Below are positions 1-29,869 of a DNA stretch of 64,000 bases, piece by piece (the first letter of the stretch is position 1; each line of letters begins with the position of its first letter). The notes beneath the pieces were generated by a model. The model worked only from the letters and a program-made list of their open reading frames with translations. It did not search any database and was not told where the DNA came from. The DNA is taken from assembly GCF_023634065.1 (NCBI RefSeq), contig NZ_JALKCV010000001.1:434001-498000 (forward strand), read 5' to 3'. The stretch comes from Microbulbifer litoralis. GTDB lineage: Bacteria > Pseudomonadota > Gammaproteobacteria > Pseudomonadales > Cellvibrionaceae. A program made the position numbers and the translations under genes.

Positions 1-1499
1 TCTTCAGCCGCCGCAAAACCGCCGACAGCCGCGATTATTTTCTCGCCCGCAACACCATGCCGATGTGGATGGTGGCCATTTCCACCCTCGCCACCATCCA
101 GTCCGCGGCCACGTTTCTCGGCGGCCCCGACCTGGGCTACAGCGGCGACTTCAGCTACCTGTTCACCAACCTGGGCGCGATCATCGCGGCGCTGATCGTC
201 TCCCGGCTGCTGATTCCGCGTTTCTACGCCCAACGGGTCACCACCGTTTACGAGCTGCTGCAGTCGCGTTTCGGCACCAGTACCAAACACCGGGCCGGTG
301 CCATGTACCTGGTGGGGCGCGTCTTTGCCAGCGGCGCCAGGCTCTATATGGCCGCCATCGCCGTCTCCATGATCCTGTTCAACGATATCGCCGCGGGCCA
401 CGTGGTGACCGCGGTGCTGATCCTGACCCTGGCGGGCCTGCTGCAGACCCTGGTCGGCGGCGTGCGCTCGGTCATCCACAGCGATATCCTGCAGTGCGCC
501 GTGTATATCAGCGCGGCTGTCGCGGTCATCTCCGTGCTGCTGTCGCAGATCCCCGTGCCCCTGCCGGAAATAAACGCTGCGCTGCAGTCACCCGGCGAAA
601 ACCTGGATTCCAAGCTCGCCGTCGTCGACCTGGGCTGGGACCTCGGCGACCCGTTCAATGTCTGGGCCACCTTCACCGGTTTCGTGCTGCTGCACTTTGC
701 CACCCTGGGGCTGGACCAGGATGTCTCCCAGCGCCTGCTCACCTGCAAGAATCCCCGCGACGGCGCCCGCGCCATGATGCTGTCCGTGGTCATGGTGGTG
801 CCGGTGATGTTTGTGTTCATGGCCATCGGCATGCTGCTGTACGTGTTCTACCAGCGCCCGGACCTGATGGCCGGCGCGGCCGGGCCGGCCCCCACCGGTG
901 GCGACATCACCGTTTTCATGCACTATGTACTGAACGAAATGCCGCAGGGCCTGCGCGGCCTGGTGACCGTCGGCGTCATGGCGGCCGCCCTGTCCACGCT
1001 CAATTCCAGCCTCAATTCCATGGCCAGCGTGCTGACCGAGGACCTGTACCGCGGCTGGCTGAACAAGCGCCATATCGATAAACCGGCCCGCCACTTCGTC
1101 CTCGCCGGGCGCATTTCCATGTGCGCGCTGGCCCTCGCGCTCGGCGGTATGGCCGTCGTCTGCTACTACTGGCAGCAGTACAGCGAACTGCCGCTGATCA
1201 CCTTTGCGCTGTCGGTGATGGTGTTCGCCTACTCGGGCCTGCTGGGCGTTTTCTTTACCGTGCTGTTTACCCGCCGCGGCAACAGCACCAGCGCCGGCCT
1301 GGCGCTGGCCGCGGGCTTTCTCGTCACGCTGGCCCAGCAACCCTGGATGATCGGCCTGGTGAGCGACGCCGCCCCGACCGACATCGCCTTTACCTGGCAG
1401 CTGTGCCTGGGCACCGTGATCGCCTTTGCCGTCTGCTGCCTGGGCAGGCCCGAGCCCGTCTCGATCGACAACCGGTCATTGGAGGGATCCAGTGCATGA
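1..1499 (+). CDS. Sodium:solute symporter (SSS/SSF family), 5' end outside window
   Basis: Inner-membrane Na+-coupled importer, probably for MurNAc, GlcNAc or a related amino sugar. The reading frame is open from base 3 and already shows the family's conserved start of TM2 (DYFLARNTMP, then WMVAISTLATIQSAATFLGG), so the true start lies upstream of the window and the ATG at 57 is internal. About twelve hydrophobic segments follow; the SSF signature region GLRGLVTVGVMAAALSTLNS is present at the usual place. The stop overlaps the start of the next gene (ATGA, 1496-1499), which implies translational coupling to the sugar kinase and then murQ. In E. coli the equivalent transport step is the PTS permease MurP; here a symporter plus a kinase would replace it. 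Family assignment is firm; the substrate is inferred from context. Confidence 0.9.
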   Translation, partial: FSRRKTADSRDYFLARNTMPMWMVAISTLATIQSAATFLGGPDLGYSGDFSYLFTNLGAIIAALIVSRLLIPRFYAQRVTTVYELLQSRFGTSTKHRAGAMYLVGRVFASGARLYMAAIAVSMILFNDIAAGHVVTAVLILTLAGLLQTLVGGVRSVIHSDILQCAVYISAAVAVISVLLSQIPVPLPEINAALQSPGENLDSKLAVVDLGWDLGDPFNVWATFTGFVLLHFATLGLDQDVSQRLLTCKNPRDGARAMMLSVVMVVPVMFVFMAIGMLLYVFYQRPDLMAGAAGPAPTGGDITVFMHYVLNEMPQGLRGLVTVGVMAAALSTLNSSLNSMASVLTEDLYRGWLNKRHIDKPARHFVLAGRISMCALALALGGMAVVCYYWQQYSELPLITFALSVMVFAYSGLLGVFFTVLFTRRGNSTSAGLALAAGFLVTLAQQPWMIGLVSDAAPTDIAFTWQLCLGTVIAFAVCCLGRPEPVSIDNRSLEGSSA

Positions 1500-2365
1500 G
1501 CGACTATTTCATCGGCATCGACGGCGGTGCCACCAAGACCCTGGGGCGGCTCGGCGGCGGCGACCTGGCGCCGCTTGAAATACGCAGCGGCGCCAGTTCC
1601 CTGAGCCGCGAGCTGCCGGAAGCCATCGCCAGCATCGTCGGCCTGGGGCGACAACTGTTGGCAAAGCGCGGCATCGACCCTAAACAGGTATCCATCGCCT
1701 GCGGTGTCGCGGGGGCGGGCAACCCGGTCGCCGCGGAACAGCTCCGCACGCGCCTGCAGGCCGCGGGTTACGCCCGTGTACTGGTCACCTCGGATGCCAG
1801 GACATCGCTGATCGGCGCCGGTGCCGGCCAGCCCATGGTGATGGCGGCGATCGGTACCGGCTCCGTGGCCATGCGGCTGGGGCGGGACGGCAGCATCCGC
1901 CAGTTCGGCGGCTGGGGCCTGGCCGTGGGCGACGAGGGCAGCGGCGCCGCCATCGGCAAAAGTGCGGTGCGCGCCCTGTTGTGGGAACTGGATATTCACG
2001 GCCGCGCCGCGAGCGGGCTCTGCCGGCATATCATGGAACACGTCGGCTACGAGCGCTCGACGATCCTCCCCTGGCTGCAGCGGGCCGGCTCGCGGGAGTA
2101 CGCCGCGCTGGCCCCGGCCGTTTTCGAACATCTGCCGCACAGCCGGTTGGCGGAGGATATCGTCGGGAAAACGGCCGTCGACCTCGAGCGGTTGATCCGC
2201 ACCGCCGGCGACGATGAGGCACTGCCGCTGGCCCTGCTGGGAGGCCTGGCCGGGAAAATGAGCCCCTACCTGTCCGCGGACCTCCGCTCGCGGCTGGTGC
2301 GCCCGCTCGGCACGGCCCTGGACGGCGCCTGCTCGCTGGCACAGCGGGATATGGAACTGGTTTGA
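1496..2365 (+). CDS. BadF/BadG/BcrA/BcrD-family sugar kinase (MurNAc/GlcNAc kinase-like)
   Basis: Cytoplasmic ATP-dependent kinase of 289 residues in the ASKHA fold. Visible motifs are the phosphate-1 loop FIGIDGGATKT near the N-terminus, the phosphate-2 loop AAIGTGSVAMRLG near residue 120, GGWGLAVGDEGSGAAIG just after it, and the adenosine-loop-like LLGGLAGKMSPYL near the C-terminus. The family contains mammalian N-acetylglucosamine kinase and clostridial MurK, which phosphorylates MurNAc and GlcNAc at O6. Its start overlaps the symporter stop and it sits 60 bases before murQ, so making MurNAc-6-phosphate for MurQ is the natural reading. The substrate is inferred, not shown by the sequence. 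A longer in-frame extension upstream overlaps the symporter and is not used. Confidence 0.85.
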   Translation: MSDYFIGIDGGATKTLGRLGGGDLAPLEIRSGASSLSRELPEAIASIVGLGRQLLAKRGIDPKQVSIACGVAGAGNPVAAEQLRTRLQAAGYARVLVTSDARTSLIGAGAGQPMVMAAIGTGSVAMRLGRDGSIRQFGGWGLAVGDEGSGAAIGKSAVRALLWELDIHGRAASGLCRHIMEHVGYERSTILPWLQRAGSREYAALAPAVFEHLPHSRLAEDIVGKTAVDLERLIRTAGDDEALPLALLGGLAGKMSPYLSADLRSRLVRPLGTALDGACSLAQRDMELV

Positions 2366-2425
2366 TTTCCGCCGATTCGGCGCAACGCAAGGCGGGCACC
2401 AGCCGCGGCCGGCAGGCCCGCCCCT

Positions 2426-3382
2426 ATGGAAAACGCAATGTACGAAGATCTCATACAGGAATTAAGTCTGCTCGCCAGTGAGGCGCGCAACCCGGACACC
2501 CAGGATATCGACCTGCTGCCCACCGTCTCGATCCTCGAGAAAATCAATGTCGCCGACCGCGAGGTGCCGCAGGCGGTGGAGCGGGTGATTCCGCAGATCG
2601 CCGAGGCCGTCGATCACATCGTCGACGCTTTCAAGGCCGGCGGCCGGCTGGTGTATATGGGCGCCGGCACCAGCGGGCGCCTCGGCATTCTGGACGCGGT
2701 GGAGTGCCCGCCCACCTACGGCGTGCCGGAAGACATGGTGATCGCGCTGATTGCCGGCGGCGGGGAAGCGGTGTACCGCGCCCAGGAGGGGGCCGAGGAC
2801 AACCCGGCGCTGGGGCAGTCGGATCTCGAGGGTATCGGCCTGACGGAGAAGGACGTCGTGGTCGGTATTGCCGCCAGCGGCCGCACGCCCTATGTGATCG
2901 GCGGCCTGCGCCATGCGCGCAAGCTGGGCTGCACCACCGTCGCCCTGTCCTGCAACCGCACCGCGGCCATCGCCGATGAGGCCGATATCAGGATCCTGCC
3001 GGAGGTGGGGCCGGAAATCCTGACCGGTTCCACCCGCATGAAGGCCGGCACCGCCCAGAAGCTGGTGCTCAACATGCTGACCACCGCCAGCATGATCCGG
3101 CTCGGCAAGAGCTTCTACAACCTGATGGTGGACGTGAAGGCCACCAACGCCAAACTGCGCGGGCGCACCCGCCGCATCGTCATGGAGGCCACCGGCGCCT
3201 CCCTGGCCGAGGCCGACCGCGTCTTGGGCCAGTGCGACCACAACGCCAAGATCGCCATCATGATGATCCTCAGCGGGCTCGAAAGAGACAGCGCGGAAAA
3301 AGCCCTGGACGACGCCGATGGTTTCCTGCGCCGCGCGCTGCAGCAGGTACAGGGCGACAGCGCCGGGGCAAAACAGGGCTAG
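2426..3382 (+). CDS. murQ: N-acetylmuramic acid 6-phosphate etherase MurQ
   Basis: Cleaves the D-lactyl ether of MurNAc-6-phosphate to give GlcNAc-6-phosphate and D-lactate in the cytoplasm. The 318-residue protein has the SIS-fold signature [21 protein letters not shown], which contains the first catalytic glutamate, and [12 protein letters not shown], which contains the second (Glu83 and Glu114 of the E. coli enzyme). The downstream [11 protein letters not shown] and [19 protein letters not shown] blocks are also typical. A second ATG at 2438 has a better ribosome site (GGAAA five bases before it), so the protein may be four residues shorter. The gene ends seven bases from the end of the convergent glcF. 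Identification is secure. Confidence 0.97.
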
Positions 3383-3389
3383 CGGCCCG

Positions 3390-4652
3390 CTAACCCACTG
3401 TCCTTTCATCCAGCGCATCGGCGACAAGCTCCAGCCAGTGGCGCACCGGCTTGTCCGTTCCGCCCTGCAGGTGCAGCAGGCAGCCGATATTGGCCGTCAG
3501 GATGGTCTCCGGATCCGTCGCCTGCAGCTTGCGCAGCTTATCCTTTCGCAGGGCGCGCGCCCGGCCCGGTTGCAGCAGGGAATAGGTGCCGGCGGAGCCG
3601 CAGCAGAGATGCGCGTCCTCCACCGGCGGCAGCTGCAACCCCAGGCGCGACAGCAGCGCCTCCACCCTGCCGCCGAGGCGCTGGCCGTGCTGCAGTGTGC
3701 AGGGGCAATGGAACACCGTATTGTCCAATCCGCCCAGCAGATCGCTGTCGAGCGGCGTTTCGCGCAGCACTTCCTCCGCCAGCTCCACCGGATCGCGCAG
3801 CAGTGCGGCGATCCGTTGCGCCTTTTCCCGGTAGCCGGGGTCGTCGGCCAGCAGCGCCGGGTAGTCCTTCAGGTGCACGGCGCAGCCGGAAGCCGTGGAG
3901 ACAATCGCCCGCAGCGGCCGCCGCTCCAGTTGCGAACACCAGAGATCGATATTTTTCCGCGCCATGTCGCGCGCCTGTTCCTCGGCGCTGGTGTGAAAGC
4001 TGGCGGCGCCGCAACAACCCGCCGACGGCGCCTGCAGAACCGGTACCGAGCAGTGCGCCAGGACGCGCTGCAGGGCCGAATCGATGCCCGGCCGCAGCAG
4101 CGGCTGCACACAGCCGCCCATCAACAGCACCGCCCCGGAATCGGGGCCCTCTTCCCCGCCGGCCGCTACCGGCGCCCGCCCGCCCCGCCGCGACGGGAAA
4201 TAGACGCGGCGCAGCCTGCGCGGCAGCAGCGGCGCGGCCAGCCGCCCCATCCCCAGCAACACCCGCAGCAGGCGCGGCGACAGCAGCAACTGCCGCACCA
4301 GGGCGCGCAGGCCCCGCTGCGGGAAACTGCGCGGCGCCAGGCGCTCGACCGTCTCCCGGCCGATGGATACCAGGTGGTGGTACTCGACCCCCGACGGACA
4401 GGTGGTCTCGCAACTCTGGCAGGTCACACAGCGATCCAGGTGCGTGCGCGTGGCGGCGCCGGCCTCGCCGGTTTCCAGCATTTCCTTGATCAGGTAGATG
4501 CGGCCCCGCGGGCTGTCCAGTTCGTTGCCCTCCAGCAGATAGGTGGGACAGGTAGCAGTGCAGAAGCCACAGTGCACACAGGCATTCAGTATCTCTTCCG
4601 CACGCCGGGAATCGTTTTCGGAAACCAGGCCCTCGACCAGCTTTACCTGCAT
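3390..4652 (-). CDS. glcF: GlcF-type iron-sulfur subunit of a glycolate/D-lactate dehydrogenase
   Basis: Electron-transfer subunit of a membrane-associated 2-hydroxyacid dehydrogenase with GlcD and GlcE. The 420-residue protein carries two [4Fe-4S] motifs (CVHCGFCTATCP near residue 25 and CVTCQSCETTCP near residue 75). Two CCG-type cysteine domains follow (AGCCGAASFH near residue 205, LCCGSAGTYS near residue 350). It is the last gene of a tight run with only three bases between glcE and glcF. The run also contains namZ, which ties the enzyme to MurNAc breakdown. By family name it is glycolate oxidase; by context D-lactate released by MurQ is a likelier substrate. Confidence 0.92.
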   Translation of the reverse strand: MQVKLVEGLVSENDSRRAEEILNACVHCGFCTATCPTYLLEGNELDSPRGRIYLIKEMLETGEAGAATRTHLDRCVTCQSCETTCPSGVEYHHLVSIGRETVERLAPRSFPQRGLRALVRQLLLSPRLLRVLLGMGRLAAPLLPRRLRRVYFPSRRGGRAPVAAGGEEGPDSGAVLLMGGCVQPLLRPGIDSALQRVLAHCSVPVLQAPSAGCCGAASFHTSAEEQARDMARKNIDLWCSQLERRPLRAIVSTASGCAVHLKDYPALLADDPGYREKAQRIAALLRDPVELAEEVLRETPLDSDLLGGLDNTVFHCPCTLQHGQRLGGRVEALLSRLGLQLPPVEDAHLCCGSAGTYSLLQPGRARALRKDKLRKLQATDPETILTANIGCLLHLQGGTDKPVRHWLELVADALDERTVG

Positions 4653-4655
4653 GGC

Positions 4656-5720
4656 CTACACCTCCCCACCGGTAAAACAGGTTTCGGCGAGATGGGGATT
4701 GAAGATCCCCTGCGGGTCGAATGCCCGCCTGATGCGCCGCTGCCAGCCGCGGCCACTATCCGCAACCTGCGTGGGCCGCCCGCGCAGCACGCGCACGAAA
4801 CCGCCCGCCTCGCCGGCCCGGCGCTGCAGCGCCGGGTGATCGCCACCGGCCACCCAGGTACGGGCGCCCTCCCAGTCCACCATGACGTCGCCACTGTATT
4901 GCGCCGGCGGCGCGCCCCGCGGCAGGTAGACGGCGGCGAGCTGTTCCGCGGAGAAAAAGTCGTGGCGCAGGTCCCGCAGCGCACTCCAGTCGAAATCGCT
5001 GTCCTCGCCGCCGAGAGAATCCAGCAGTGGCCTGACCGCGGCCCGCCGCCCGCTGAGGCGCAGGTACAGCCGTCCATTCCGGTGACAGGCGCCGCTGATC
5101 AGCGGGCGCAGCGAACGCGTCTTCTGCCACCACTGCGGCAGGTCGGCGGCGGGCACCAGGAAACTGCGGGTCAGGCTGCACTCGGGCCGCGGCAACAACC
5201 GCAGGCTGACGTCCAACAGCACGCCGAGCGTGCCCAGGGCGCCCACCTGCAGCCGCGACAGGTCGTAGCCGGCCACATTCTTCATCACCTGCCCGCCGAA
5301 ATTCACGATCTCGCCGCGGCCGTTCAGCATCCGGCAGCCGATCAGGGAATCCCGCAGCGACTGTCCGAAAGCGCGCGCGGGCCCGTCCCAACCGCTGGCC
5401 ACGGCGCCGCCGATGGTGCTGGCGGCGCCCGGCTGCGGGATATCGGCCGCAAACCTCTGCCCCTCGGCGGCGAGCAGTGCCTGTAGCTCCGCCAGCGGCG
5501 TGCCGCTGCGCACCCGCAGCATCAGTTCGTCCGGCTGGTAATCGATCACGCCGCGGTGTTCGCCCACGTCCAGCCTATGTCCGCCCAGCGGCAGATTGAA
5601 ACCGGTGCGGCTGGCGCCGCCGGCGATAGCCAGGCCCCCCGCCGCGCCGCCGGCCGCGGCCGCCCGCAATACCCGCTCGACCTCTTCCTGCAGCTGCAGG
5701 CTGCAATCCCGTTCAGCCAT
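4656..5720 (-). CDS. glcE: GlcE-type FAD-binding subunit of a glycolate/D-lactate dehydrogenase
   Basis: Second flavin subunit of the GlcDEF complex, 354 residues. It has a shortened PCMH-type FAD domain: GGASRTGFNLPLGG near residue 34, the FAD-binding stretch FAADIPQPGAASTIGGAVASG near residue 90 and VMKNVAGYDLSRLQVGALGT near residue 145. The start overlaps the end of glcD by eight bases, so the two subunits are translationally coupled. GlcE lacks the full C-terminal oxidase half of GlcD, as expected for this subunit. Substrate choice cannot be read from this subunit; see glcD and the locus context. Confidence 0.92.
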   Translation of the reverse strand: MAERDCSLQLQEEVERVLRAAAAGGAAGGLAIAGGASRTGFNLPLGGHRLDVGEHRGVIDYQPDELMLRVRSGTPLAELQALLAAEGQRFAADIPQPGAASTIGGAVASGWDGPARAFGQSLRDSLIGCRMLNGRGEIVNFGGQVMKNVAGYDLSRLQVGALGTLGVLLDVSLRLLPRPECSLTRSFLVPAADLPQWWQKTRSLRPLISGACHRNGRLYLRLSGRRAAVRPLLDSLGGEDSDFDWSALRDLRHDFFSAEQLAAVYLPRGAPPAQYSGDVMVDWEGARTWVAGGDHPALQRRAGEAGGFVRVLRGRPTQVADSGRGWQRRIRRAFDPQGIFNPHLAETCFTGGEV

Positions 5721-7143
5721 CGGATTTTCTCAACATTCGGTATTCCTGGCAGTGCGCCAGGGTGGGAATCAGTTTGCCCGGGTTGAGCAGCCGGTCGGGG
5801 TCCAGCGCGTCCTTGACGGCGAGGAACTGGGCAATTTCCGCATCGCTGAACTGCACTGCCATCTGGTCGATTTTCTCCAGGCCCACGCCGTGCTCGCCGG
5901 TGATGGTGCCGCCCACCTCGATACAGTACTCGAGAATATCCGCAGCCAGGTGTTCGACCCGGTCCACGGCGTCGACTTCGCGGCCGTTGAACATGATGAT
6001 CGGGTGCAGGTTGCCATCGCCGGCGTGAAAGACATTGGCCACACGCAGTTGGTAGCGCGCGGCGAAGCGATCGATGGCTTCCAGTACATCGCCGATGCGG
6101 TGGCGCGGTACGGTGCCGTCGATGCAGTAGTAGTCGGGGCTCAGGCGGCCGACGGCCGGGAAAGCACTCTTCCTGCCCTTCCACCAGAGTTCCCGCTGGG
6201 CGGCGTCGGCGGCGCGCTGGACCCTCGTCGCGCCGGACCGCGCCAGCACCGGCTCGACCACCGCCATGTCCGCGGCCACCTCCTGCGGCTGGCCGTCCAG
6301 GTCGATCAGCAGTATGGCCGCGGCATCGAGCGCGTAGCCCGGGTGGCAGAATTTTTCCGTCGCCTCGATCGCCAGCGCGTCCATCATTTCCAGCGCCGCC
6401 GGAATCACGCCGGCACGCACGATCGCGGAGACCGCGTCCGCCGCCGCGCGCACTGTCGGGAAGTCGGCCATCAGCATGCGCGTGCGGCTCGGTTGTGGCG
6501 TCAGCCGCACCGTCACCTCGGTGACGATGCCCAGGCCGCCCTCGGAGCCGTGCACCAGTGCCAGCAGATCGTAACCCGGTTGCGCCGGGCAATCGCCCCC
6601 CGCGGTCAGTACTTCGCCGTCGATGGTGACCAGGCGCAGCCCGGTGACATTCTGCACCGTCACCCCGTATTTGAGACAGTGCACGCCGCCGGCGTTTTCC
6701 GCCACATTGCCGCCGATGGAGCAGGCGATCTGCGACGACGGATCCGGGGCGTAGAACAGGTTTTGGGCCGCGGCGGCGCGGGATATCTGCAGGTTGACGA
6801 CACCGGGCTGCACGCGCGCGGTCATCGCATCGGGATCGATCGACAGGATACGGTCCATGGGGCTGGTCACCAGCAGTATGCCGCCGGCATCGGGCCTGGC
6901 GCCGGCAGACAGGCCGGTGCCGGCACCGCGGGAGACCAGCGGTACCTGCCACTCGCGGCAGAGCCTGGCCACCGCCACCACCTCGGCTTCGCTGCGCACC
7001 AGTGCCACGGCGCGGGGGCGCTCTCGGTATACCGGCAGCGCATCGCACTCGAACGGCGCCACACGTTCACATCCGCTGATGACGCGGTCACCGGGCAGGA
7101 TGCGGCACAGGGCCTCGACAATGGGGTCTCGCTTGGAGTGCAT
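5713..7143 (-). CDS. glcD: GlcD-type FAD-linked catalytic subunit of a glycolate/D-lactate dehydrogenase
   Basis: Catalytic flavoprotein of 476 residues in the FAD_binding_4/FAD-oxidase_C family, oxidising a D-2-hydroxyacid and passing electrons to GlcF. Visible are VSRGAGTGLSAGARP near residue 70, the FAD-binding run YAPDPSSQIACSIGGNVAENAGG near residue 125, and the C-terminal HAGDGNLHPIIMFN and TGEHGVGLEKI metal/substrate motifs. The ATG at 7143 is chosen because it lies one base after the stop of the upstream gene; an in-frame extension further upstream overlaps that gene. The run namZ–nagX-like–glcD–glcE–glcF is continuous. GlcD and D-lactate dehydrogenases are close relatives, so a D-lactate role is plausible here. 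Confidence 0.92.
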   Translation of the reverse strand: MHSKRDPIVEALCRILPGDRVISGCERVAPFECDALPVYRERPRAVALVRSEAEVVAVARLCREWQVPLVSRGAGTGLSAGARPDAGGILLVTSPMDRILSIDPDAMTARVQPGVVNLQISRAAAAQNLFYAPDPSSQIACSIGGNVAENAGGVHCLKYGVTVQNVTGLRLVTIDGEVLTAGGDCPAQPGYDLLALVHGSEGGLGIVTEVTVRLTPQPSRTRMLMADFPTVRAAADAVSAIVRAGVIPAALEMMDALAIEATEKFCHPGYALDAAAILLIDLDGQPQEVAADMAVVEPVLARSGATRVQRAADAAQRELWWKGRKSAFPAVGRLSPDYYCIDGTVPRHRIGDVLEAIDRFAARYQLRVANVFHAGDGNLHPIIMFNGREVDAVDRVEHLAADILEYCIEVGGTITGEHGVGLEKIDQMAVQFSDAEIAQFLAVKDALDPDRLLNPGKLIPTLAHCQEYRMLRKSDG

Positions 7144-7144
7144 A

Positions 7145-8335
7145 TCACACCTTCCAGATAATCCGGCGCCGGTAGAGCTGCCACAGGGCACCGTAAAAAA
7201 TCGCCAGGCAGCTCAATGCGAATGCCAGCGAACCACCGTAGCCACCGAACAGCGGCCGATAGACGCCATTGAACAGCCACTGTTTCAGCGACAGGTCGCC
7301 CACCGGAATCGCGATCAGTAGCCGGCCGACAATCCCCGCGAGCATGAACAGGGCGATGGCGTTGATCCCGAACACCAACAGCGGCGCCAGCGCCCGGCGC
7401 TGCCCGCGGATATCGGCCAGGTAAAAACAGCCGGCCAGCAGTATCAGCGATACGCCGCCGGTCACGGCGACAAAACTCGGCGACCAGAGCGCCTTGTTGA
7501 CCGGTACCCAGGGGTGCAGCAACTGGCCCAACGCCAGCAATACTAGCCCGCCCAGTAACCAGTATGCGGCGAGGCGCGTTTTCGCCGCCGGCGACTGTGA
7601 CGAGGCGCGCCACCCCAGCCCCGCCAGCACACCGAGCAGGCAGGTGGCCGCCGCCGGCAGTGTGGTCAGCAGTCCTTCCGGGTCGAAGGCGAACGGCTGT
7701 GCGGTCCGGTAGTAGACATGTGTACTACCGAGGATCGCCTGGTCCAGCCAGGCGGAAAAATGGTTGCCGAACGACAGCTGGCCGCGAAATATCTCGCCGG
7801 CACCATCGCTGTAGGGCACCCACAGCATCAGCAGCCACGGCGCGATCGCCAGCGTCAATGTGGCCACCAGCAGCCCGCGCGGCGAACACCAGCGCAGCAG
7901 GTAACAGCATATGATGTACACCAGCGCGATGCGCTGCAACACACCCAGCCAGCGGATGCGCTCGAGGCGATCCCGCAGCCAGTTGTAGTCGGCGTCGCGG
8001 AAATTGTAGAAAAAGACCGCCAGCAACAGGCCCAGCGCAAACAGTTTCAGTGCCCGCGACCACTGCCGGCGCCCCACAGCCGGGAACTCGCGCCGGTCGC
8101 CATTGGCCAGCACCAGCGACAGGCCGACAACAAACAGGAACAGCGGGAAAATCACGTCGGTGGGTGTCCAGCCGTGCCACTCGGCGTGCGCCAGCGGCGC
8201 GTAGACATGGGACCAACTGCCGGGGTTGTTGACCACCACCATGGCGGCGATGGCGAGCCCGCGCAGCAGGTCGACGGCCACCAGCCGCCCCTCGGGCATG
8301 GCGGCGAGAATTTCGTTGCTGTGGCGGGAAAGCAC
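7145..8335 (-). CDS. NagX-like / heparan-alpha-glucosaminide N-acetyltransferase-family membrane protein (DUF5009)
   Basis: Inner-membrane protein of 396 residues with about ten hydrophobic helices. It opens with RLVAVDLLRGLAIAAMVVVNNPG and later has WTPTDVIFPLFLFVVGLSL, the hallmarks of the HGSNAT/YeiB-like acyltransferase family that includes NagX. NagX genes are repeatedly found in GlcNAc-use loci and are proposed to act in amino-sugar transport or transmembrane acetylation; the biochemistry is unsettled. GTG 8335 is preferred as start because GGAG lies about nine bases before it; ATG 8299 is the alternative. It lies six bases after namZ and one base before glcD, so it belongs to the same transcript. 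A role moving or modifying MurNAc/GlcNAc is inference. Confidence 0.8.
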   Translation of the reverse strand: MLSRHSNEILAAMPEGRLVAVDLLRGLAIAAMVVVNNPGSWSHVYAPLAHAEWHGWTPTDVIFPLFLFVVGLSLVLANGDRREFPAVGRRQWSRALKLFALGLLLAVFFYNFRDADYNWLRDRLERIRWLGVLQRIALVYIICCYLLRWCSPRGLLVATLTLAIAPWLLMLWVPYSDGAGEIFRGQLSFGNHFSAWLDQAILGSTHVYYRTAQPFAFDPEGLLTTLPAAATCLLGVLAGLGWRASSQSPAAKTRLAAYWLLGGLVLLALGQLLHPWVPVNKALWSPSFVAVTGGVSLILLAGCFYLADIRGQRRALAPLLVFGINAIALFMLAGIVGRLLIAIPVGDLSLKQWLFNGVYRPLFGGYGGSLAFALSCLAIFYGALWQLYRRRIIWKV

Positions 8336-8341
8336 CGTCCG

Positions 8342-9520: not shown

Positions 9521-9536
9521 CTTTTTTCCTCGAGCT

Positions 9537-16461: not shown

Positions 16462-16474
16462 GAATAATTTATCA
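16462..16474. promoter_or_regulatory. Candidate MurR operator, imperfect (GAATA-N3-TATCA)
   Basis: Eight of ten positions match the palindrome GAATA-N3-TATTC. It lies in the AT-rich gap between the divergent serine hydrolase and transglutaminase-like genes, with a partner site 32 bases away (centre to centre), about three helical turns. Confidence 0.45.
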
Positions 16475-16493
16475 ATACAGGAATATCGTGTAA

Positions 16494-16506
16494 ATATAAA
16501 TTATTC
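16494..16506. promoter_or_regulatory. Candidate MurR operator, imperfect (ATATA-N3-TATTC)
   Basis: Eight of ten positions match GAATA-N3-TATTC. Together with 16462-16474 it could control both divergent transcripts. The whole segment 16458-16515 is strikingly AT-rich for this genome. Confidence 0.45.
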
Positions 16507-21363: not shown

Positions 21364-21376
21364 GAATACATTATTC
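21364..21376. promoter_or_regulatory. Candidate MurR operator, perfect GAATA-N3-TATTC
   Basis: GAATACATTATTC, centred about 66 bases upstream of the P60 endopeptidase start. The same palindrome is perfect at 29787-29799 and 37254-37266. Confidence 0.6.
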
Positions 21377-21407: not shown

Positions 21408-21432
21408 AAAAAAGCCGGCGCAGGGCGCCGGC
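21408..21432 (-). terminator. Rho-independent terminator of the murein-locus TonB receptor
   Basis: Read on the minus strand, an eight-base GC stem (GCCGGCGC with GCGCCGGC, three-base loop) is followed by six T. It lies 60 bases after the receptor stop codon. Confidence 0.85.
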
Positions 21433-21493
21433 AAGACAGAGACCGGAGGGGCCACACCGGGGCGGTGCGTCGGCCCCTCACGGGTTGGGGTCG

Positions 21494-24136: not shown

Positions 24137-24474
24137 CTTATTCCCTCGCGTCGTTTTTTTATTGAGTTATCCACTTTCGGTCGAGCGACCCGCGTCGAAG
24201 ACAGCGCTGTCTTATGGAATAAACTATTTCAGAGAATGTAGACGGTCAAGAATTATTTATGTTTAATGGCGGTACTGGCGCACAGTGGCGGGAATAAATA
24301 TTCGGACTATTCCGCACTAACTGTCTTTTATGTCAACCGAAGGATCCCTTACGGGGCAAAGGCACGCGACAGGGACAAATATAACCATGACTGGCGGCCG
24401 GATCTCGCCGGGCCATTTCCGGTACCGCCACCAGTACAGTATCCCGACCCGGCTATCAGACTGGAGGAGCCCCA
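24137..24474. other. Divergent promoter region between TonB receptor and amidase
   Basis: A 338-base gap with no convincing gene; short open frames here lack a ribosome site and family features. It contains an AT-rich core (24217-24303), the candidate operator at 24217, a weaker related sequence at 24250, and GAATAAATATTC at 24292-24303, in which the two half-sites are spaced by two bases instead of three. Confidence 0.6.
24217..24229. promoter_or_regulatory. Candidate MurR operator, near-perfect (GAATA-N3-TATTT)
   Basis: GAATAAACTATTT matches nine of ten palindrome positions, about 80 bases upstream of the TonB receptor start. Confidence 0.5.
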
Positions 24475-25461
24475 ATGCCGACTACCGGAACAAAGCGCGG
24501 CTGGAAGAGCGCGCTGATCGCGTCCGCCTGTACCCTGACCCTCAGCGCCTGCAGCGGCGCTGGCGGAGGCTTCAACAGCGCCGCCAGTGGCGATTTCCAG
24601 CTCGAGACAGTGGCATCGCAGAACGCCAGCGAACGGGTGCGCTTCCTGGTCATGCACTATACCGCCGAGGATTTTGCCAGCTCACTGCGCATACTGACGC
24701 AACCCAGCCCCTACCCGGTGAGCGCCCACTACCTGGTGCCGGAGAGTGGCGACCCCAGCTATCCGCACTCCGATCTCCGCGTCTACCAGCTGGTGGACGA
24801 GAGCCGGCGCGCCTGGCACGCGGGCCCGGGGGAATGGGAGGACCGCACCCAGGTCAACGACCAGTCCATCGGTATCGAAATCGTCAATCAAGGCCGCTGT
24901 CACCCGCCGGTGGAGATGGTGGCGCAGAAGGCCGGCGAAGAGGTGTGTTTCTTCCCCGAGTTCGACGATCGCCAGATCGAGCTGCTGATAGCGCTTTCCC
25001 ACAGCATTCTAGAGCGCTACCCGGAAATCACCCCCACCCGCGTCGTCGGCCACAGCGATATCCGCCCGTACCAGAAAGTCGACCCGGGCCCGCGCTTCCC
25101 GTGGGAGCAGCTGGCCGCGGCCGGTATCGGCGCCTGGTACGACGACGACACCGCCGAGCGCCACCTGGAAAACCTGCGCGGCAACACCAGCAGCGACCGC
25201 GACAGCATCCGCCGGCGCTTTGCCCGCTGGCTGTCCGATTACGGCTACGGCATCGATCCGGAAACCGCCAGCGACGAGGATATCGGTCTCTACACCCGCG
25301 CCTTCCAGTACCACTTCCGGCCGTGGAAGGTCGACGGCGAAGTGGACAACCAGACCCGCGCCATTCTGCTGGCACTGCTGGAGAAGTATTTTCCGGATAA
25401 ACTGAGCGGCTACAGCGAAATCAACACCCGGGTACTTGCGGAACTGCAGCCGGACGAATAG
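24475..25461 (+). CDS. AmiD-like lipoprotein N-acetylmuramoyl-L-alanine amidase
   Basis: Cleaves the MurNAc–L-Ala bond to free stem peptides. The 328-residue protein has a lipoprotein signal (LIASACTLTLSACSG). The amidase_2/PGRP zinc domain spans roughly residues 50-210: FLVMHYTAEDF with the first histidine, SAHYLVPESG, NDQSIGIEIVNQG and VGHSDIRPYQKVDPGPRFPW with the second histidine and the aspartate ligand. Residues 230-315 form a peptidoglycan-binding-type helical domain (FARWLSDYGYGID, TRAFQYHFRPWKVDGEVD, NQTRAILLALL). A strong GGAGGAG lies six bases before the ATG. Architecture matches outer-membrane AmiD of E. coli. Followed after 93 bases by yfeW, likely cotranscribed. Confidence 0.92.
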   Translation: MPTTGTKRGWKSALIASACTLTLSACSGAGGGFNSAASGDFQLETVASQNASERVRFLVMHYTAEDFASSLRILTQPSPYPVSAHYLVPESGDPSYPHSDLRVYQLVDESRRAWHAGPGEWEDRTQVNDQSIGIEIVNQGRCHPPVEMVAQKAGEEVCFFPEFDDRQIELLIALSHSILERYPEITPTRVVGHSDIRPYQKVDPGPRFPWEQLAAAGIGAWYDDDTAERHLENLRGNTSSDRDSIRRRFARWLSDYGYGIDPETASDEDIGLYTRAFQYHFRPWKVDGEVDNQTRAILLALLEKYFPDKLSGYSEINTRVLAELQPDE

Positions 25462-25554
25462 CGATCCCGGTGCGCATGGCGCCCGCAGCAAAGCGGAAAC
25501 AGGCCGGTACAGAAACCGGTTGCCCGAACACTTCAGAAGAACCTGGGAACAACA

Positions 25555-26880
25555 ATGCACCATCTGGCCGGTCGCGCCCTCAGCCTGCTGGCGGCTTTCG
25601 CCCTACTCGTATCCGCCGCCCGGGCCGGCGAGCCGATCCGCTACCCGGTCCTGGGCCGGGCCGCGAGCCCGGAAGCAGCCGGCTTTTCCAGCCGCGGACT
25701 GCAACGGGTGGATGCGCTGATCCGGCGCGAAGTCGCCGCGGGTTTTCCCGGCGCGGCGCTGATCGTCATCAAGGACGGCAAGATCGTCAAAAGCACCAGC
25801 TACGGCTACCGGCAGAAATTTGCCGGCGCCGCACCGCTGCCGACCTTCGCCCCGATGACGAGCGGGACCCTGTTCGACCTGGCCTCCAACACGAAGATGT
25901 ACGCGACCAACTTCGCCCTGCAAAAACTGGTCAGCGAGGGCAGGCTGGACCTGCGCGACAAGGTCCAACAGTACCTGCCCGAATTCCGCGACACCGAGGG
26001 CGATACCATCAAGGGCAAGGATTCGCTGCGGATCGTGGATATCCTGCACCACAGCGCCGGCTTTCCGCCGGACCCCCAGTACCACAACCCGGCGGTGGCC
26101 GGGGCGCTCTATTCCCAGCAGCGCGACAGGACCATCGCCCGGGTCAGCAGGACGCCGCTCGCCTATACGCCGGGCACCCGGAATGTCTACAGCGATGTGG
26201 ACTATATGCTGCTGGGCATTATCGTCGAGCGGATCACCGGACAGCGGCTCGACGACTATGTGGAACAGTCGATCTACCGGCCGCTGGGCCTGGACCACAC
26301 ACTCTTCGTACCGCTGCAGAAAGGCTTCAGCCCCGGCGACTTCGCCGCGACCGAAACCCTGGGCAATACCCGCGACGGCGCTGTCGACTTTCCCAATATC
26401 CGCACCGGCACGCTGCTCGGCCAGGTGCACGATGAAAAAGCCTTCTATTCCATGGCCGGGGTTTCCGGGCACGCCGGTCTCTTTTCCACCACCGGCGACC
26501 TGGCGGTACTGTTACAGGTGATGCTGAACGGCGGCGGCTACGGCCGGCAGGAATTCTTCGATCGCGAGACCGTCGAGCTTTTCACGCAACCTTCGGCAGC
26601 GGATCCGAGCTACGCCCTGGGCTGGAGAACCAATGGCGACCGGGAAATGGAATGGATGTTCGGCAGCGGCGCCAGCAGCCACGCCTACGGCCACACCGGC
26701 TGGACCGGTACACTCACCGTGATCGACCCGGAGTTCAACCTGGGGATAGTCCTGCTGACCAACAAGAAGCACTCGCCGGTGATCCAGAGCGGCAAAAATG
26801 CCGGCCGCTTTATCGGCGACCTGTTTTCCGTCGGGCGCTACGGTGCCGTGGTAACGGCGGTATACGAAGCCCTGCAGTAA
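25555..26880 (+). CDS. yfeW: Penicillin-binding protein PBP4B (YfeW family serine hydrolase)
   Basis: Exported S12-family DD-peptidase-like protein of 441 residues. From memory of the family it is strikingly similar to E. coli YfeW along its whole length: TLFDLASNTKMYATNFALQK with the SxxK serine and lysine, KLRIVDILHHSAGFP-type block, YSDVDYMLLGIIVERITG with the YxN-equivalent, FPNIRTGTLLGQVHDEKAFY, and YGHTGWTGTLTVIDPEF with the HTG triad element. A Sec signal covers the first 24 residues (cleaved after ARA). In E. coli yfeW closes the murQ–murP–yfeW operon under MurR, so its presence here supports the locus assignment. Its physiological substrate is not settled. Confidence 0.93.
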   Translation: MHHLAGRALSLLAAFALLVSAARAGEPIRYPVLGRAASPEAAGFSSRGLQRVDALIRREVAAGFPGAALIVIKDGKIVKSTSYGYRQKFAGAAPLPTFAPMTSGTLFDLASNTKMYATNFALQKLVSEGRLDLRDKVQQYLPEFRDTEGDTIKGKDSLRIVDILHHSAGFPPDPQYHNPAVAGALYSQQRDRTIARVSRTPLAYTPGTRNVYSDVDYMLLGIIVERITGQRLDDYVEQSIYRPLGLDHTLFVPLQKGFSPGDFAATETLGNTRDGAVDFPNIRTGTLLGQVHDEKAFYSMAGVSGHAGLFSTTGDLAVLLQVMLNGGGYGRQEFFDRETVELFTQPSAADPSYALGWRTNGDREMEWMFGSGASSHAYGHTGWTGTLTVIDPEFNLGIVLLTNKKHSPVIQSGKNAGRFIGDLFSVGRYGAVVTAVYEALQ

Positions 26881-26970
26881 GAGCCTGTTTGAACGCCTGG
26901 ACAGGCGTGACGGCGGCCTCCGGTTTCATTTCGCGGCGCACCCTGCCCTGCCCGGCGCACATCGCATGCC

Positions 26971-27777
26971 TTACAGCCAGGGTGGCTCGCTGCCGGCGGC
27001 AATATTTTCCAACTCCCGCGCGAGCCGGTCGGTCACCAGCATATGGCCCGGGCTGTTGGTCGCAAAGAAATCCAGGTTCGCCCCCCGCAGCGCATCGCCG
27101 GCGGTCACGGCGCAGGACCAGAAAACCGGTACCTCGCCTTCCCGCACGGCCACGGCCTCGCCGAAATCCGGCGCCTGCAAATCCGCAATCCCCAATTGCG
27201 CCGGTTCCCCGGCCGCCACCGGTGCACCGTGCAGCAGCGGGTAGCGCGCGCAGATACTGCGCACCAGATCCAGTTGGCCGGCGCTGAAGGGGCGCATGCT
27301 GACCACCAGGTTGGCACCGAAGGGCCCGGCCGGCGTACAGCTTGAGGAAGTCCGGAACATGGGGATATTTTTGCCCTGCCACACATTCCGCACCTGCAGC
27401 CCGTTGCTGATCAGCGCCTCCTCCAGGGAGAAAGAGCAGCCGAGCAGGAAAGTCACCAGGTCGTCGCGCCAGTGGTCGGCAATGTCGGTGACTTCCGTGT
27501 CGCCGCCGTCCCGGTGCAGCCGGTAGCGCGGCAGATCCCGTCGAACGTCGATATCGTCGCCGGCGGGCGGCAGCGCAAACTGGCCCGGCTCCGAGCGGTA
27601 CAGCAGCGGGCAGGCGGCGGGGTTGGCGGCACAGAAACGGGCAAAGTCCTCCGCGGCGGCGGCCGGCAGGATCACGGCGGAGGCCTGTACATAACCGGCC
27701 GCGAGACCCGAAGTCGGGCCGGCGATGCGCCCCGCGCGAATTTCCGAGCGAATGACTTTCGAACAGTGGCGAATCAT
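26971..27777 (-). CDS. DUF1445 / D-glutamate cyclase-family protein (UPF0317)
   Basis: Cytoplasmic protein of 268 residues of the family called putative hydro-lyase or D-glutamate cyclase (PF07286; its eukaryotic homologue DGLUCY turns D-glutamate into 5-oxo-D-proline). Recognisable blocks are IRAGRIAGPTSGLAAGYVQA at the N-terminus, VTFLLGCSFSLEEALISNG near residue 115, NIPMFRTSSSCTPAGPF near 140 and FWSCAVTAGDAL plus ITNSPGHM-like FFATNSPGHMLVTD at the end. ATG 27777 has GGAAAC before it. It follows nagZ by 72 bases and is likely cotranscribed. D-Glu is a murein peptide residue, so disposing of D-Glu is an attractive but unproven role. Confidence 0.85.
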   Translation of the reverse strand: MIRHCSKVIRSEIRAGRIAGPTSGLAAGYVQASAVILPAAAAEDFARFCAANPAACPLLYRSEPGQFALPPAGDDIDVRRDLPRYRLHRDGGDTEVTDIADHWRDDLVTFLLGCSFSLEEALISNGLQVRNVWQGKNIPMFRTSSSCTPAGPFGANLVVSMRPFSAGQLDLVRSICARYPLLHGAPVAAGEPAQLGIADLQAPDFGEAVAVREGEVPVFWSCAVTAGDALRGANLDFFATNSPGHMLVTDRLARELENIAAGSEPPWL

Positions 27778-27849
27778 GCTGTCTGTTTCCTGCGGGCCCG
27801 CGACGGAAAAAGGCCTGCCCGGCAATGCACATCGCCGGGCCGGTGTTGA

Positions 27850-29748
27850 TCAGGGCAGCGCGGCCCGCTCCATCGCGGCGTGCACGGTGACCGGCAGAAT
27901 GCCCGGCGGCACCTCGGCGCTGGTCAGGGCGCGGGCGAGAGCCCCGTAGATGGGGCCGTGCAGGGCGCCGTCCCTATCAATATAGGCTTTGTAGTCGTAA
28001 CTCGCGATCTGCAGGTCCGCGATGTCCCGGAACTGCGCCGCCTCGTAGGGCGAGCGCATGCTGATGAAGACCGTCTTGCTGCCCCGCTCGCGGGCGCCGA
28101 GCAGCGCCTTGCGATAGATATCGTAGAGCGCCCCGGTATCCAGCCGCGGCCGCCGCAACCCGGCCAGGTCGTCCATTCCGCCGCGCTCCACGGCGTTTTC
28201 CTGCGGCACGATACTGGCAACCAGCAGCACATCCGCGTGGCCCTGCGCCTGCGCCGCGAGCGCGTTCTCCGGCGTGACTACCCGGACTTCGGATTCCGTC
28301 ACCCGCGCCAGGGCCAGCTTGAACGCCTCGCCCACCTCCACGGAGGGGGCGATCACCCGGATACGCCGGGTGGCTCGGTCCACAACCGGCAGGACACCGG
28401 GCTCCACCGGGAAAATCGGGCTGAGCGCCGCCCCCGCCAGCGCGCTGGCGAGCTCCGCATCGTCCGGGCTCGCCAGTGCCTGCCGGGCCAGGCGGATATT
28501 GTCCCGCGCGCCGCGCTCGATCCAGGCCCGGTCAACGTACTGCCGCTTGAGCGCCCGGACCCGCGCCACCGAGCGGTCCAGCTCCGCCAGCGAGAGCTCG
28601 CCCGCCTCGACGGCATCCGCCACGTGATCGATCAGGGTCTGCAGGTCGCGCAGCTGTTGCGGGTAGCGGATCTTGATCGGCATCACGGCGATATCCGCGC
28701 CGGCGGCAAAGGTATGCAGCACTGCATCCGTGGGGGAGAAGTAATTGCTGATTCCCGCCATGTCCAGCGCGTCGGTGACCACCACGCCGCGGTAGCCGAG
28801 CTCCCCGCGCAACAGGTCGGTGAGGATGGCGCGCGACAGGGTCGCCGGCACCGGGATCTGCTCGCCGTCGACAGTCTGCAGGGTGGAATCGTCCAGCGCC
28901 GGATACTGGATATGCGCGGTCATGGTCAGGGCCGGGGCGGAGCGGGCGATGACCTCGGCAAACGGCAGCAGGTCCACGGCCCTGGCACGCTGCAGGCTGC
29001 GTTCCACCCGCGGCAGGCCGGTATGGCTGTCCACCGCGGTATCGCCGTGGCCGGGAAAATGCTTGACGGTCGCGGCGATGTTTTCCGCCTGGAAGGCGCT
29101 GACACTGGCCGCGCCGAGATCCGCTACCACGCGGGGATCCTCCGAATAGGAGCGCACGTTGATCACCGGGTTGTCCGGGTTGCTGTTCACGTCCAGCGTC
29201 GGGGCAAAATTCACATTGAACCCCAGCAGCTTCAGCTGCCTGGCCATGGCCGCCGCGGTGGAGCGCGCGAATGCGTCGCCGTGGCTGGCGTGGGTGGCAC
29301 CGATGGCCATATTGCCGGCGAAGGCGACGGACTCGGCGCGCGGCAACCGGGTCACCCGGCCACCCTCCTGGTCGACCGCAATCAGCAGCGGAATGCCGTG
29401 GCGGGCGTCGGCGGCGGCCGACTGCAGTGCGTCATTGAGACGGACGATCTGTGCACTGTTCTCCAGGTTGTCGGCAAACAGGATCACCCCGCCGAGGCCG
29501 CTGTCCGCGATCAGGCGGCGCAGGTCCTGCGGCAGCCGGGTGACCGGCTGGCGGCACTCGCCGGCCTGGTCCGGGCTGCCGTCGGCGCAGTAGTAGCGGA
29601 TATCCAGCATGATCTTCTGCGCGATCTTCTCGCGCAGGGACAGCTCCGGCGGCGGGGCGCTCTGCTCATCGGAACAGGCACAGACAGACAGCAGGGCCGC
29701 CAGGAAGATCGACGGGCGGGCGAGGCGGTGACACAGGCTTCTAATCAT
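27850..29748 (-). CDS. nagZ: Two-domain lipoprotein beta-N-acetylglucosaminidase NagZ (GH3)
   Basis: Removes terminal GlcNAc from murein fragments. The 632-residue protein carries a lipobox (AALLSVCACSDE) and so is predicted to be anchored outside the cytoplasm, unlike the short cytosolic NagZ of enterobacteria. The GH3 barrel (residues about 35-400) shows LIAVDQEGGRVTRLP, NFAPTLDVNSNPDNPVINVRS, the His/Asp-loop KHFPGHGDTAVDSHTGLP, and VVVTDALDMAGISNYF with the nucleophilic aspartate. A second alpha/beta domain (about 430-630) matches the layout of B. subtilis NagZ (YbbD), the partner of NamZ in the exolytic pathway. A perfect candidate operator lies 39 bases upstream. Confidence 0.94.
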   Translation of the reverse strand: MIRSLCHRLARPSIFLAALLSVCACSDEQSAPPPELSLREKIAQKIMLDIRYYCADGSPDQAGECRQPVTRLPQDLRRLIADSGLGGVILFADNLENSAQIVRLNDALQSAAADARHGIPLLIAVDQEGGRVTRLPRAESVAFAGNMAIGATHASHGDAFARSTAAAMARQLKLLGFNVNFAPTLDVNSNPDNPVINVRSYSEDPRVVADLGAASVSAFQAENIAATVKHFPGHGDTAVDSHTGLPRVERSLQRARAVDLLPFAEVIARSAPALTMTAHIQYPALDDSTLQTVDGEQIPVPATLSRAILTDLLRGELGYRGVVVTDALDMAGISNYFSPTDAVLHTFAAGADIAVMPIKIRYPQQLRDLQTLIDHVADAVEAGELSLAELDRSVARVRALKRQYVDRAWIERGARDNIRLARQALASPDDAELASALAGAALSPIFPVEPGVLPVVDRATRRIRVIAPSVEVGEAFKLALARVTESEVRVVTPENALAAQAQGHADVLLVASIVPQENAVERGGMDDLAGLRRPRLDTGALYDIYRKALLGARERGSKTVFISMRSPYEAAQFRDIADLQIASYDYKAYIDRDGALHGPIYGALARALTSAEVPPGILPVTVHAAMERAALP

Positions 29749-29786
29749 TGCGAGCCATAATCCATTATTATTAACATCAACTTCAG

Positions 29787-29799
29787 GAATATTTTATTC
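29787..29799. promoter_or_regulatory. Candidate MurR operator, perfect GAATA-N3-TATTC
   Basis: GAATATTTTATTC in the AT-rich leader upstream of nagZ. Confidence 0.6.
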
Positions 29800-29869
29800 T
29801 ATCGAATGCAATAAGACCCCACAAGAGAGGGGCCGGGCATTCGGGGAAAACGGCTGGACCGGAAGCCGT

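Follow-up and report, generated by a model that had tools for sequence, protein, structure and literature searches.

One of the closest described counterparts of the genes analysed here is the Bacillus subtilis ybb cluster, murQ-murR-murP-amiE-nagZ-ybbC (PMC5061867). The locus in question, a putative peptidoglycan (murein) utilization locus, is in a 64,000-nucleotide stretch of the 4.99 Mb genome of Microbulbifer litoralis (assembly GCF_023634065.1, contig NZ_JALKCV010000001.1, positions 434,001 to 498,000 of the forward strand). We refer to this stretch as the window; coordinates are positions in it, with strand as + or -, unless another contig or locus is named. In common with the Bacillus cluster, the locus encodes MurQ, an RpiR-type regulator, a two-domain NagZ, NamZ (which we take to be the product of ybbC) and an S12 hydrolase, and it would likewise carry out stepwise digestion outside the cytoplasm. 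Unlike Bacillus, which uses the phosphotransferase system (PTS) protein MurP, it has an SSS-family importer and a BadF-family kinase, and no PTS gene was recognized among the scanned locus genes. Also distinguishing it are genes for outer-membrane receptors, D-lactate-oxidase-like proteins and peptide enzymes. Bacillus further has a ykfABC-type stem-peptide set, resembled here, at the family level, by the joint presence of an S66 peptidase, an Ala-Glu epimerase and a P60 endopeptidase. The murTKQ/ampG operon of Tannerella forsythia, described in connection with use of foreign murein, also combines an N-acetylmuramic acid (MurNAc) importer of the sodium symporter superfamily, a BadF-family MurNAc kinase and MurQ (PMC7670621, PMC5790795, PMC5388701, PMC10465942). 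In those accounts AmpG is encoded inside the operon and the regulator is GppX, whereas in M. litoralis the gene for AmpG is at another site and the locus includes NagZ, NamZ and amidase, all predicted to be exported.

We conclude that these genes most probably act as an accessory regulon by which murein of other cells is catabolized, its digestion being exolytic and taking place outside the cytoplasm. A first-pass annotation of the window had proposed a Bacillus-like exolytic murein locus linked to TonB uptake. All of the families that it named were found at or near the positions it gave, using Pfam and NCBIfam and, for six proteins, also matches to solved structures (PDB). The Bacillus-like exolytic core (NamZ, two-domain YbbD-type NagZ, MurQ and an RpiR/MurR regulator) is present. 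Gene families, synteny, co-occurrence and palindromes support a dedicated, probably co-regulated and largely extracytoplasmic murein-utilization locus. The edges are wider than proposed: an additional RpiR-type gene (RpiR1) and the start of the importer gene lie left of the window, and a receptor-like gene preceded by a candidate operator is at 34061-37117. Both RpiR1 and this second receptor-like gene were absent from the annotation, as were GlcDEF, a NagX-like gene and a D-glutamate-cyclase-family gene.

Forty-eight Microbulbifer genomes were examined, including that of M. litoralis; 22 encode NamZ (NamZ+) and 26 do not (NamZ-). Regions of ~37-40 kb were fetched around NamZ in 20 genomes (18 were extended towards NagZ), and addition of G018 and the M. 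litoralis genome gave 22 loci, of which that of G015 stops at a contig end and that of G018 stops before NagZ. The annotation had suggested a search of related genomes for the same neighbourhood, and it was found: most of the 21 fetched congeners share much of the gene order, at ~55-92% protein identity. The window NamZ shares 85% identity with its Microbulbifer halophilus counterpart and 72% with NamZ of three other Microbulbifer. With tblastn (E 1e-10, query coverage 40%), MurQ and NamZ occur in all 22 loci, the SSS importer and an NhaC-type transporter in 21, and the kinase, NagZ, LdcA, the S12 hydrolase, a transglutaminase-core protein (TGase) and the NagX-like protein in 20. AmiD, RpiR1, the window regulator RpiR2, P60 and the epimerase are found in 19, an Orn/Lys/Arg decarboxylase-family protein (OKRDC) in 18 and each of GlcD, GlcE and GlcF in 17. 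Less constant are the Oar-type receptor-like protein (13), the PF07286 protein (12), the TonB-dependent receptor (TBDT; nine, five of them only 35-36% identical) and YfeW (three, one of them at 26% identity and in another place). YfeW had been counted among the members of the set; it is at the locus position only in the window genome and G042, and is not a conserved member. The locus of G042 contains only RpiR1-SSS-BadF-MurQ-NamZ-AmiD-YfeW-NagZ and an Oar-type gene, and thus marks out the sugar core; other reduced loci are those of G046 and G006.

Two-domain NagZ is encoded in 22/22 NamZ+ and 0/26 NamZ- genomes, and MurQ above its cut-off in 22/22 and 11/26 (Fisher p 4e-14 and 7e-6, respectively, both uncorrected for relatedness). 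Two-domain NagZ was called from a NagZ-family match below the canonical cut-off (E limit 1e-40) with an open frame of 634-688 aa, and in G015 and G018 was told by frame length; shorter frames of 553-566 aa, which five genomes including the NamZ+ G005 have, were not counted. Also not counted was a canonical NagZ match in G023 (C9:184708-185706), which is in a 629-aa frame with one in-frame TAG. All 48 genomes, M. litoralis included, have AmpG, AnmK and canonical NagZ with scores above cut-off; in M. litoralis AmpG is at C2:527806-529062, outside the locus. The contrast with AmpG-based recycling drawn in the annotation is therefore misleading: the locus is an addition to normal recycling, and we reject the idea that it replaces it.

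The locus genes share a putative control site. Alignment of the spacers between RpiR1 (L001:16866-17741, identified by likeness to the window RpiR and divergent from the SSS gene) and the SSS gene revealed a near-invariant block, variants of which occur elsewhere as the palindrome GAATAAWTTATTC. In the window, candidate operators of this type are present as two sites 32 bp apart in the divergent S12/TGase promoter (16462-16506), before the P60-epimerase-RpiR2 unit (21364-21376), between TBDT and AmiD (24217-24229), before the NagZ unit (29787-29799) and upstream of the Oar-type gene (37254-37266). A further match at 31664-31676 is within an esterase gene and possibly due to chance. At two or fewer mismatches, seven matches in the window compare with 0.15 expected (0/100 shuffles reach seven), and six of the seven precede locus genes. 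At the same threshold there are nine in the 82 kb around the M. litoralis locus (60 simulations averaged 0.2 and never exceeded 2) and 184 in the 22 loci (6-13 in five simulations). Because the palindrome was derived from these same 22 loci, fairer tests are the count in the window alone and the pattern of positions. With regard to position, it occurs within 420 bases upstream of the inferred first genes of units, i.e., SSS (20/21), S12 and TGase, which share sites (20/20), P60 (19/19), NagZ (20/20), the Oar-type gene (12/13), TBDT (8/9) and an MFS gene (8/10). Upstream of inferred internal genes it is essentially missing: MurQ (0/22), GlcD (0/17), epimerase (0/19), NhaC (0/21), OKRDC (0/18), PF07286 (0/12), PxpA (0/7), amidase (0/10) and LdcA (1/20). 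Among the matches listed, the exact palindromes of G001, G002, G005 and G011 (2/2 each) and G006 (1/1) are inside the locus, the one of G013 is outside, and none were found in G004, G012 or the NamZ- genomes G003 and G007-G010. Receptor, exported hydrolases, importers and regulator are linked in the locus, and the palindromes suggest common control.

The window regulator, RpiR2 (17979-18767, -), has the domains PF01418 and PF01380, and RpiR1 is 33-35% identical to it in related loci. RpiR1 is favoured as the likely binder, because G042 keeps the sites and lacks RpiR2 in the stretch fetched. Oddly placed for an operator is a palindrome of the same type just 3' of RpiR1 (L001:16814-16826), present in 18 of the 19 loci with RpiR1.

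Candidate genes for MurNAc uptake and processing are neighbours on a single strand, in a murTKQ-type arrangement. The SSS-family protein (1-1499, +; SSF E 1.3e-27; 524 aa in full, the gene starting 76 bases left of the window) is a candidate MurNAc importer like Tannerella MurT. The BadF-family sugar kinase (1496-2365, +; PF01869) is MurK/NagK-like, with 104.8 bits against the NagK cut-off of 370, and its PDB matches include 1zc6 (E 1.2e-35) and the MurNAc/GlcNAc kinase 8zo3 (E 1.3e-17). MurQ, the MurNAc-6-phosphate etherase (2426-3382, +; TIGR00274, 403 bits, cut-off 302), is the only MurQ above cut-off in the genome.

Immediately downstream, on the opposite strand, are genes for a GlcF-like Fe-S subunit (3390-4652, -; NF008434, 507 bits, cut-off 333), a GlcE-like FAD-binding subunit (4656-5720, -; PF01565 E 9.1e-15) and a GlcD-like FAD oxidase subunit (5713-7143, -; PF02913, 624.8 bits against the GlcD cut-off of 897). 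They are followed by a NagX-like membrane acetyltransferase (7145-8299, -; PF07786; NF046061 E 1.4e-48, 165.9 bits against a cut-off of 480). GlcDEF of E. coli acts on D-lactate. Because MurQ yields D-lactate (PMC5790795) and Fidelibacter is described as oxidizing D-lactate from muropeptide catabolism (PMC11652737), GlcDEF beside MurQ has an obvious job, and it probably oxidizes the D-lactate that MurQ releases. GlcDEF also adjoins MurQ in 3 of the 11 NamZ- MurQ loci fetched, those of G023 (L156), G035 (L159) and G036 (L160). In G036, GlcDEF and MurQ are followed by PxpA, PxpC and PxpB; in Microbulbifer sp. NKW57, GlcDEF is within the locus and does not adjoin MurQ.

We identified a wide set of predicted murein hydrolases and peptide enzymes. 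NamZ, the exo-beta-N-acetylmuramidase (8342-9520, -; PF07075 E 5e-77, PF20732), has a signal-like N-terminus. NagZ (27850-29748, -) aligns over residues 35-624 with Bacillus YbbD (PDB, E 1.9e-91) and has 182.3 bits against the NagZ cut-off of 207. The AmiD/AmpDh3-like amidase (24475-25461, +; PF01510) has AmpDh3 (E 8.6e-59) and AmiD as its nearest solved matches. The S12 hydrolase (14809-16368, -; PF00144 E 4.5e-67, with a weak DUF3471 match) and the YfeW/PBP4B-type S12 hydrolase (25555-26880, +; NF002968, 676 bits, cut-off 385) are both candidates for an AmiE-type function, the latter matching PBP4B/YfeW. Stem peptides could be processed by the LdcA-like S66 carboxypeptidase (13769-14812, -; PF02016, PF17676; 190.6 bits against a cut-off of 378), the SH3b and NlpC/P60 protein (19904-21304, -; PF12913, PF00877), whose nearest solved match is a gamma-D-glutamyl-L-diamino acid endopeptidase (3m1u, E 1.6e-24), and the L-Ala-D/L-Glu epimerase (18801-19892, -; 244.1 bits against an NCBIfam cut-off of 500). 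The best PDB match of the epimerase is 1jpm (E 5.5e-103), presumably the B. subtilis enzyme. A narrow AmiD motif was found in 2/19 orthologues and another, covering the second metal site only, in 19/19; a guessed NamZ motif was found in 4/22 and a P60 motif in 15/19.

Export of the hydrolases is predicted for most orthologues. With our own N-terminal scan (not SignalP; the best of several candidate starts was taken, for controls too), signal-like N-termini were found in S12 (17/20), TGase (16/20), P60 (18/19), AmiD (17/19), NagZ (18/20) and YfeW (2/3). NamZ reached 13/22; in eight loci a VanX domain precedes it in a fusion, so that its own start is not the protein start. No signal-like N-terminus was found in the controls MurQ (0/22), BadF (0/20), epimerase (0/19), RpiR2 (0/19), OKRDC (0/18), GlcD (0/17) and GlcF (0/17), and few in RpiR1 (2/19) and the D-glutamate-cyclase-family protein (1/12, the borderline case of the window itself). 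The Sec, lipobox and Tat signals previously assigned to the hydrolases are thus supported for most, but for LdcA, which has a twin-arginine-like signal in the window (MNRRDLIKG), only 8/20 orthologues have a signal-like N-terminus (a twin-arginine motif is in 13/20). Lipobox cysteines can be read in the window NagZ (VCAC), P60 (LSAC), AmiD (LSAC) and S12 (LAAC) proteins; the lipobox pattern by itself is weak, as it also matched 17/17 GlcF controls. The E. coli +2 rule governs lipoprotein sorting, and the residue after the cysteine is Ser in NagZ, AmiD and S12 and Ala in P60, never Asp, so by this rule the outer membrane would be favoured for all four. YfeW has a Sec-like signal.

The D-glutamate-cyclase-family protein (PF07286/DUF1445; 26971-27777, -; E 1.4e-54) has 322.5 bits against the NF003969 cut-off of 324. 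PF07286 (DUF1445) and PF14336 (DUF4392) correspond, by a match of numbers to DUF names that we assume, to the two halves of one enzyme. Mammalian D-glutamate cyclase is composed of the DUF1445 and DUF4392 domains (PMC5339696). Genes in the regions fetched from relatives include PxpB and PxpC (12/22), PF14336 (10), an amidase (10), PxpA (7) and alanine racemase (6); one representative of each was checked by Pfam and most by NCBIfam. In L172, L109 and L179, PxpABC, PF07286, PF14336, alanine racemase and amidase genes adjoin or are inside the locus, and a route from D-glutamate to 5-oxoproline is possible. L192 (G021) also has such genes, but they lie elsewhere, together with a further AmiD-like gene. 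Within the genus, PF14336 is found in 12/48 genomes, every one of them NamZ+; it belongs to the locus in ten and is located elsewhere in two. In the class it was found in only 2/369 genomes. In both of the latter, from another genus (L190, L191), PF14336, PxpC, PxpB, PxpA and PF07286 adjoin, and no other query of the locus set matched beside them. The general link of these families thus appears to be with 5-oxoprolinase, a link with murein being confined to Microbulbifer.

An open reading frame with an EWWH motif, which we take to be that of VanX, is at or just upstream of NamZ in 14/22 loci, and in eight it forms a single open frame with NamZ. The fusion is confirmed by Pfam for G018 only (L170:4415-6283; Peptidase_M15 49-243, NamZ_N 277-474, NamZ_C 480-619), the seven further congeners being assigned by open frame, and a separate VanX-type gene is confirmed by Pfam in G012; VanX scores of both are below the NCBIfam cut-off. 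No such fusion was found in the M. litoralis locus.

The TonB-dependent receptor (21494-24136, -; TIGR01782, 657 bits, cut-off 310) has plug and barrel Pfam domains. The protein at 34061-37117 (-), for which we assume the label Oar, has a CarboxypepD_reg domain and is 55-79% identical to 11 homologues; 11 congeners keep a homologue adjoining P60. A PDB sequence search returned only thioredoxin-like chains (E 0.2-0.48), a profile comparison of the two receptor families gave a probability of 24% (E 8e-4, in the plug region only), and the predicted structure was unusable (mean pLDDT 27). There is weak evidence that this protein is a receptor. Between the locus and this gene is an aldose-1-epimerase-family gene (32360-33397); by eye, a similar open frame is left of RpiR1 in G042.

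Other genes kept in the locus are those for OKRDC (9959-11902, -; PF01276 E 2.1e-93), found in 18/22 loci, and the NhaC-type transporter (11914-13308, -; PF03553 E 5.7e-51), found in 21/22. The latter may import amino acids or peptides derived from murein, and the substrates of the two are perhaps diaminopimelic acid, lysine or peptides. The exported TGase (16539-17972, +; PF01841 E 1.8e-15), in 20/22 loci and with no PDB sequence match at E 1, is possibly a stem-peptide enzyme.

Murein fragments would pass the outer membrane, in part via TonB receptors, and exported enzymes would dismantle them from the ends, either in the periplasm or on the outer membrane. NagZ is predicted to remove N-acetylglucosamine (GlcNAc) and NamZ to remove MurNAc, and the AmiD-like amidase to free the stem peptide, which LdcA, S12 and P60 may trim to L-Ala-D-Glu and free amino acids. 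MurNAc would be imported by the SSS protein, phosphorylated by the BadF kinase and converted by MurQ to GlcNAc-6-phosphate and D-lactate, the latter probably being oxidized to pyruvate by GlcDEF. The epimerase could convert L-Ala-D-Glu, and D-Glu may be handled by the D-glutamate-cyclase-family enzyme (with 5-oxoprolinase in relatives). The RpiR regulators would act at GAATAAWTTATTC, with MurNAc-6-phosphate perhaps as the signal, as it is for E. coli MurR (PMC5061867). Viewed more broadly, the locus may be a complete route from murein to central metabolism under one operator, including D-lactate oxidase, bifunctional VanX-NamZ (8/22 loci) and a D-glutamate route (both cyclase-family halves and PxpABC in relatives). 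On this view, murein breakdown would be a physiological function of the D-glutamate cyclase families in bacteria; we put this extended scheme forward tentatively, as about as likely to fail as to hold, or slightly more so.

Several observations weigh against these interpretations. PxpA and PF14336 were not found in a search of the M. litoralis genome, so the D-Glu route is incomplete there. LdcA, NagZ, NagX, GlcD, the kinase, the epimerase and (just) the PF07286 protein are below NCBIfam cut-offs; MurQ, GlcF, YfeW and the TonB receptor are above. No endo-acting muramidase or lytic transglycosylase was recognized among the scanned locus genes by Pfam or NCBIfam, and therefore intact sacculi would require enzymes from elsewhere. 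Receptors are the least conserved part: 15/22 loci match one of the two receptor queries, with the type changing, and seven match neither (one of these is ended by a contig end), so to describe the locus as built on TonB uptake was too strong. In the Oar-type protein no plug or barrel was recognized by Pfam, to E 10. The palindrome is upstream of AmiD, an inferred first gene, in only 9/19 loci and of NamZ, an inferred internal gene, in 1/22; transcription of NamZ would have to start from the S12 unit and, in the window, cross two gaps of ~0.44-0.46 kb. At one or fewer mismatches the palindrome occurs in all 48 genomes, and several NamZ- genomes exceed NamZ+ ones (22 matches in G034 and 17 each in G028 and G029, with 7, 6 and 3 in the reversed control; five in M. 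litoralis, control 1). Thus, the short palindrome alone is not specific.

The near lack of a NamZ palindrome would also fit two or three separate neighbouring systems (MurNAc uptake, amino-acid or peptide use, glycolate oxidation) rather than a single functional unit, as would the sugar-only locus of G042 and the coming and going of GlcDEF, OKRDC, YfeW, Pxp and receptor genes. However, one palindrome precedes sugar, peptide and receptor units alike, and GlcDEF is placed with MurQ even in the three NamZ- genomes (and in the same locus in NKW57), so we regard separate systems as quite improbable. Salvage of fragments from the cell's own periplasmic turnover that AmpG misses (non-anhydro forms), rather than use of outside food, is easier to entertain, as all of the catalytic steps would serve such fragments as well, and B. 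subtilis AmiE and NagZ are described as degrading muropeptides from its own turnover (PMC5061867). We consider it unlikely, given that AmpG, AnmK and canonical NagZ are already present in all 48 genomes and 26/48 live without NamZ and two-domain NagZ, and that the presence of receptor, D-lactate oxidase and D-amino-acid genes speaks for net catabolism. The predicted export of several murein hydrolases could finally indicate a weapon that attacks neighbouring cells, with consumption secondary. Yet the enzyme families are exo-acting or peptide-trimming, with lipoprotein or periplasmic signals, and no endolysin-type or secretion-system gene was recognized among the scanned locus genes, which makes this extremely improbable.

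The distribution of NamZ outside of the genus was also examined. NamZ was found in 11/390 genomes of the order, four of them Microbulbifer. The neighbourhoods of the other seven were all fetched; G075 alone showed another homologue, which is YfeW-like, and nothing matched in G162, whose NamZ match is in two pieces. The 80 named NamZ loci include five from Microbulbifer, five from Bacteroidota with YfeW-NagZ-NamZ and three from Robiginitomaculum with kinase, amidase and NamZ; one (L015) has an S12-type gene at a distance of 9 kb, one (L023) has a 25% SSS match, and 65/80 match NamZ only. In the three Robiginitomaculum bins (Alphaproteobacteria), Oar-type, AmiD and NamZ genes adjoin, a BadF kinase gene is near, and amidohydrolase- and SIS-type genes are further left. 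Recent acquisition of NamZ from Bacteroidota was considered and is not supported by a tree of 41 sampled sequences (part of the Bacteroidota, and none of L162-L167 from NamZ+ other genera of the order), in which the Pseudomonadota share one side with a support of 90, the window protein being placed with Microbulbifer.

Murein of dead cells is abundant organic matter, and gene sets for consuming it have been described, as far as we have seen, for few Gram-negative bacteria. A locus with a recognizable operator could serve as a genetic marker for finding murein consumers. It also offers a compact, testable model for receptor-fragment pairing, MurNAc import without a PTS and use of the D-lactate and D-glutamate of murein, and suggests a role for PF07286 and PF14336 proteins in bacteria.

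Another close counterpart is the ~27 kb murein polysaccharide utilization locus (PUL) of a Urechidicola symbiont (Flavobacteriaceae), for which murQ, GH3, GH171, epimerase, amidase, DD-carboxypeptidase, nhaC and TonB-type receptors are described (PMC10199937). That system is from Bacteroidota and has SusCD pairs, AmpG and DeoR, whereas the Microbulbifer locus has RpiR genes, GlcDEF and the D-glutamate-cyclase family; neither SusD nor AmpG was recognized among its scanned genes, and a TonB receptor is present. The idea of a murein counterpart of PULs agrees with the linkage of receptor, hydrolases, importers and regulator and with their putative common control, and has a precedent in this published PUL. 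RmNag3 of Rhodothermus marinus is a probably periplasmic Gram-negative NagZ that was compared with that of Bacillus; the account reports no AmpG there (PMC6987092), whereas AmpG is kept here. For Fidelibacter multiformis, foreign muropeptides are described as a carbon and energy source, with oxidation of D-lactate derived from MurNAc-6-phosphate; we found no locus of this kind described there, and the words TonB and MurQ are not used in the main text (PMC11652737). In searches of the open-access literature we found no gammaproteobacterial locus of this type and no link between D-glutamate cyclase and murein, although either may exist in print. The parts of the Microbulbifer system are known; this assembly of them, with its shared control site, looks new.

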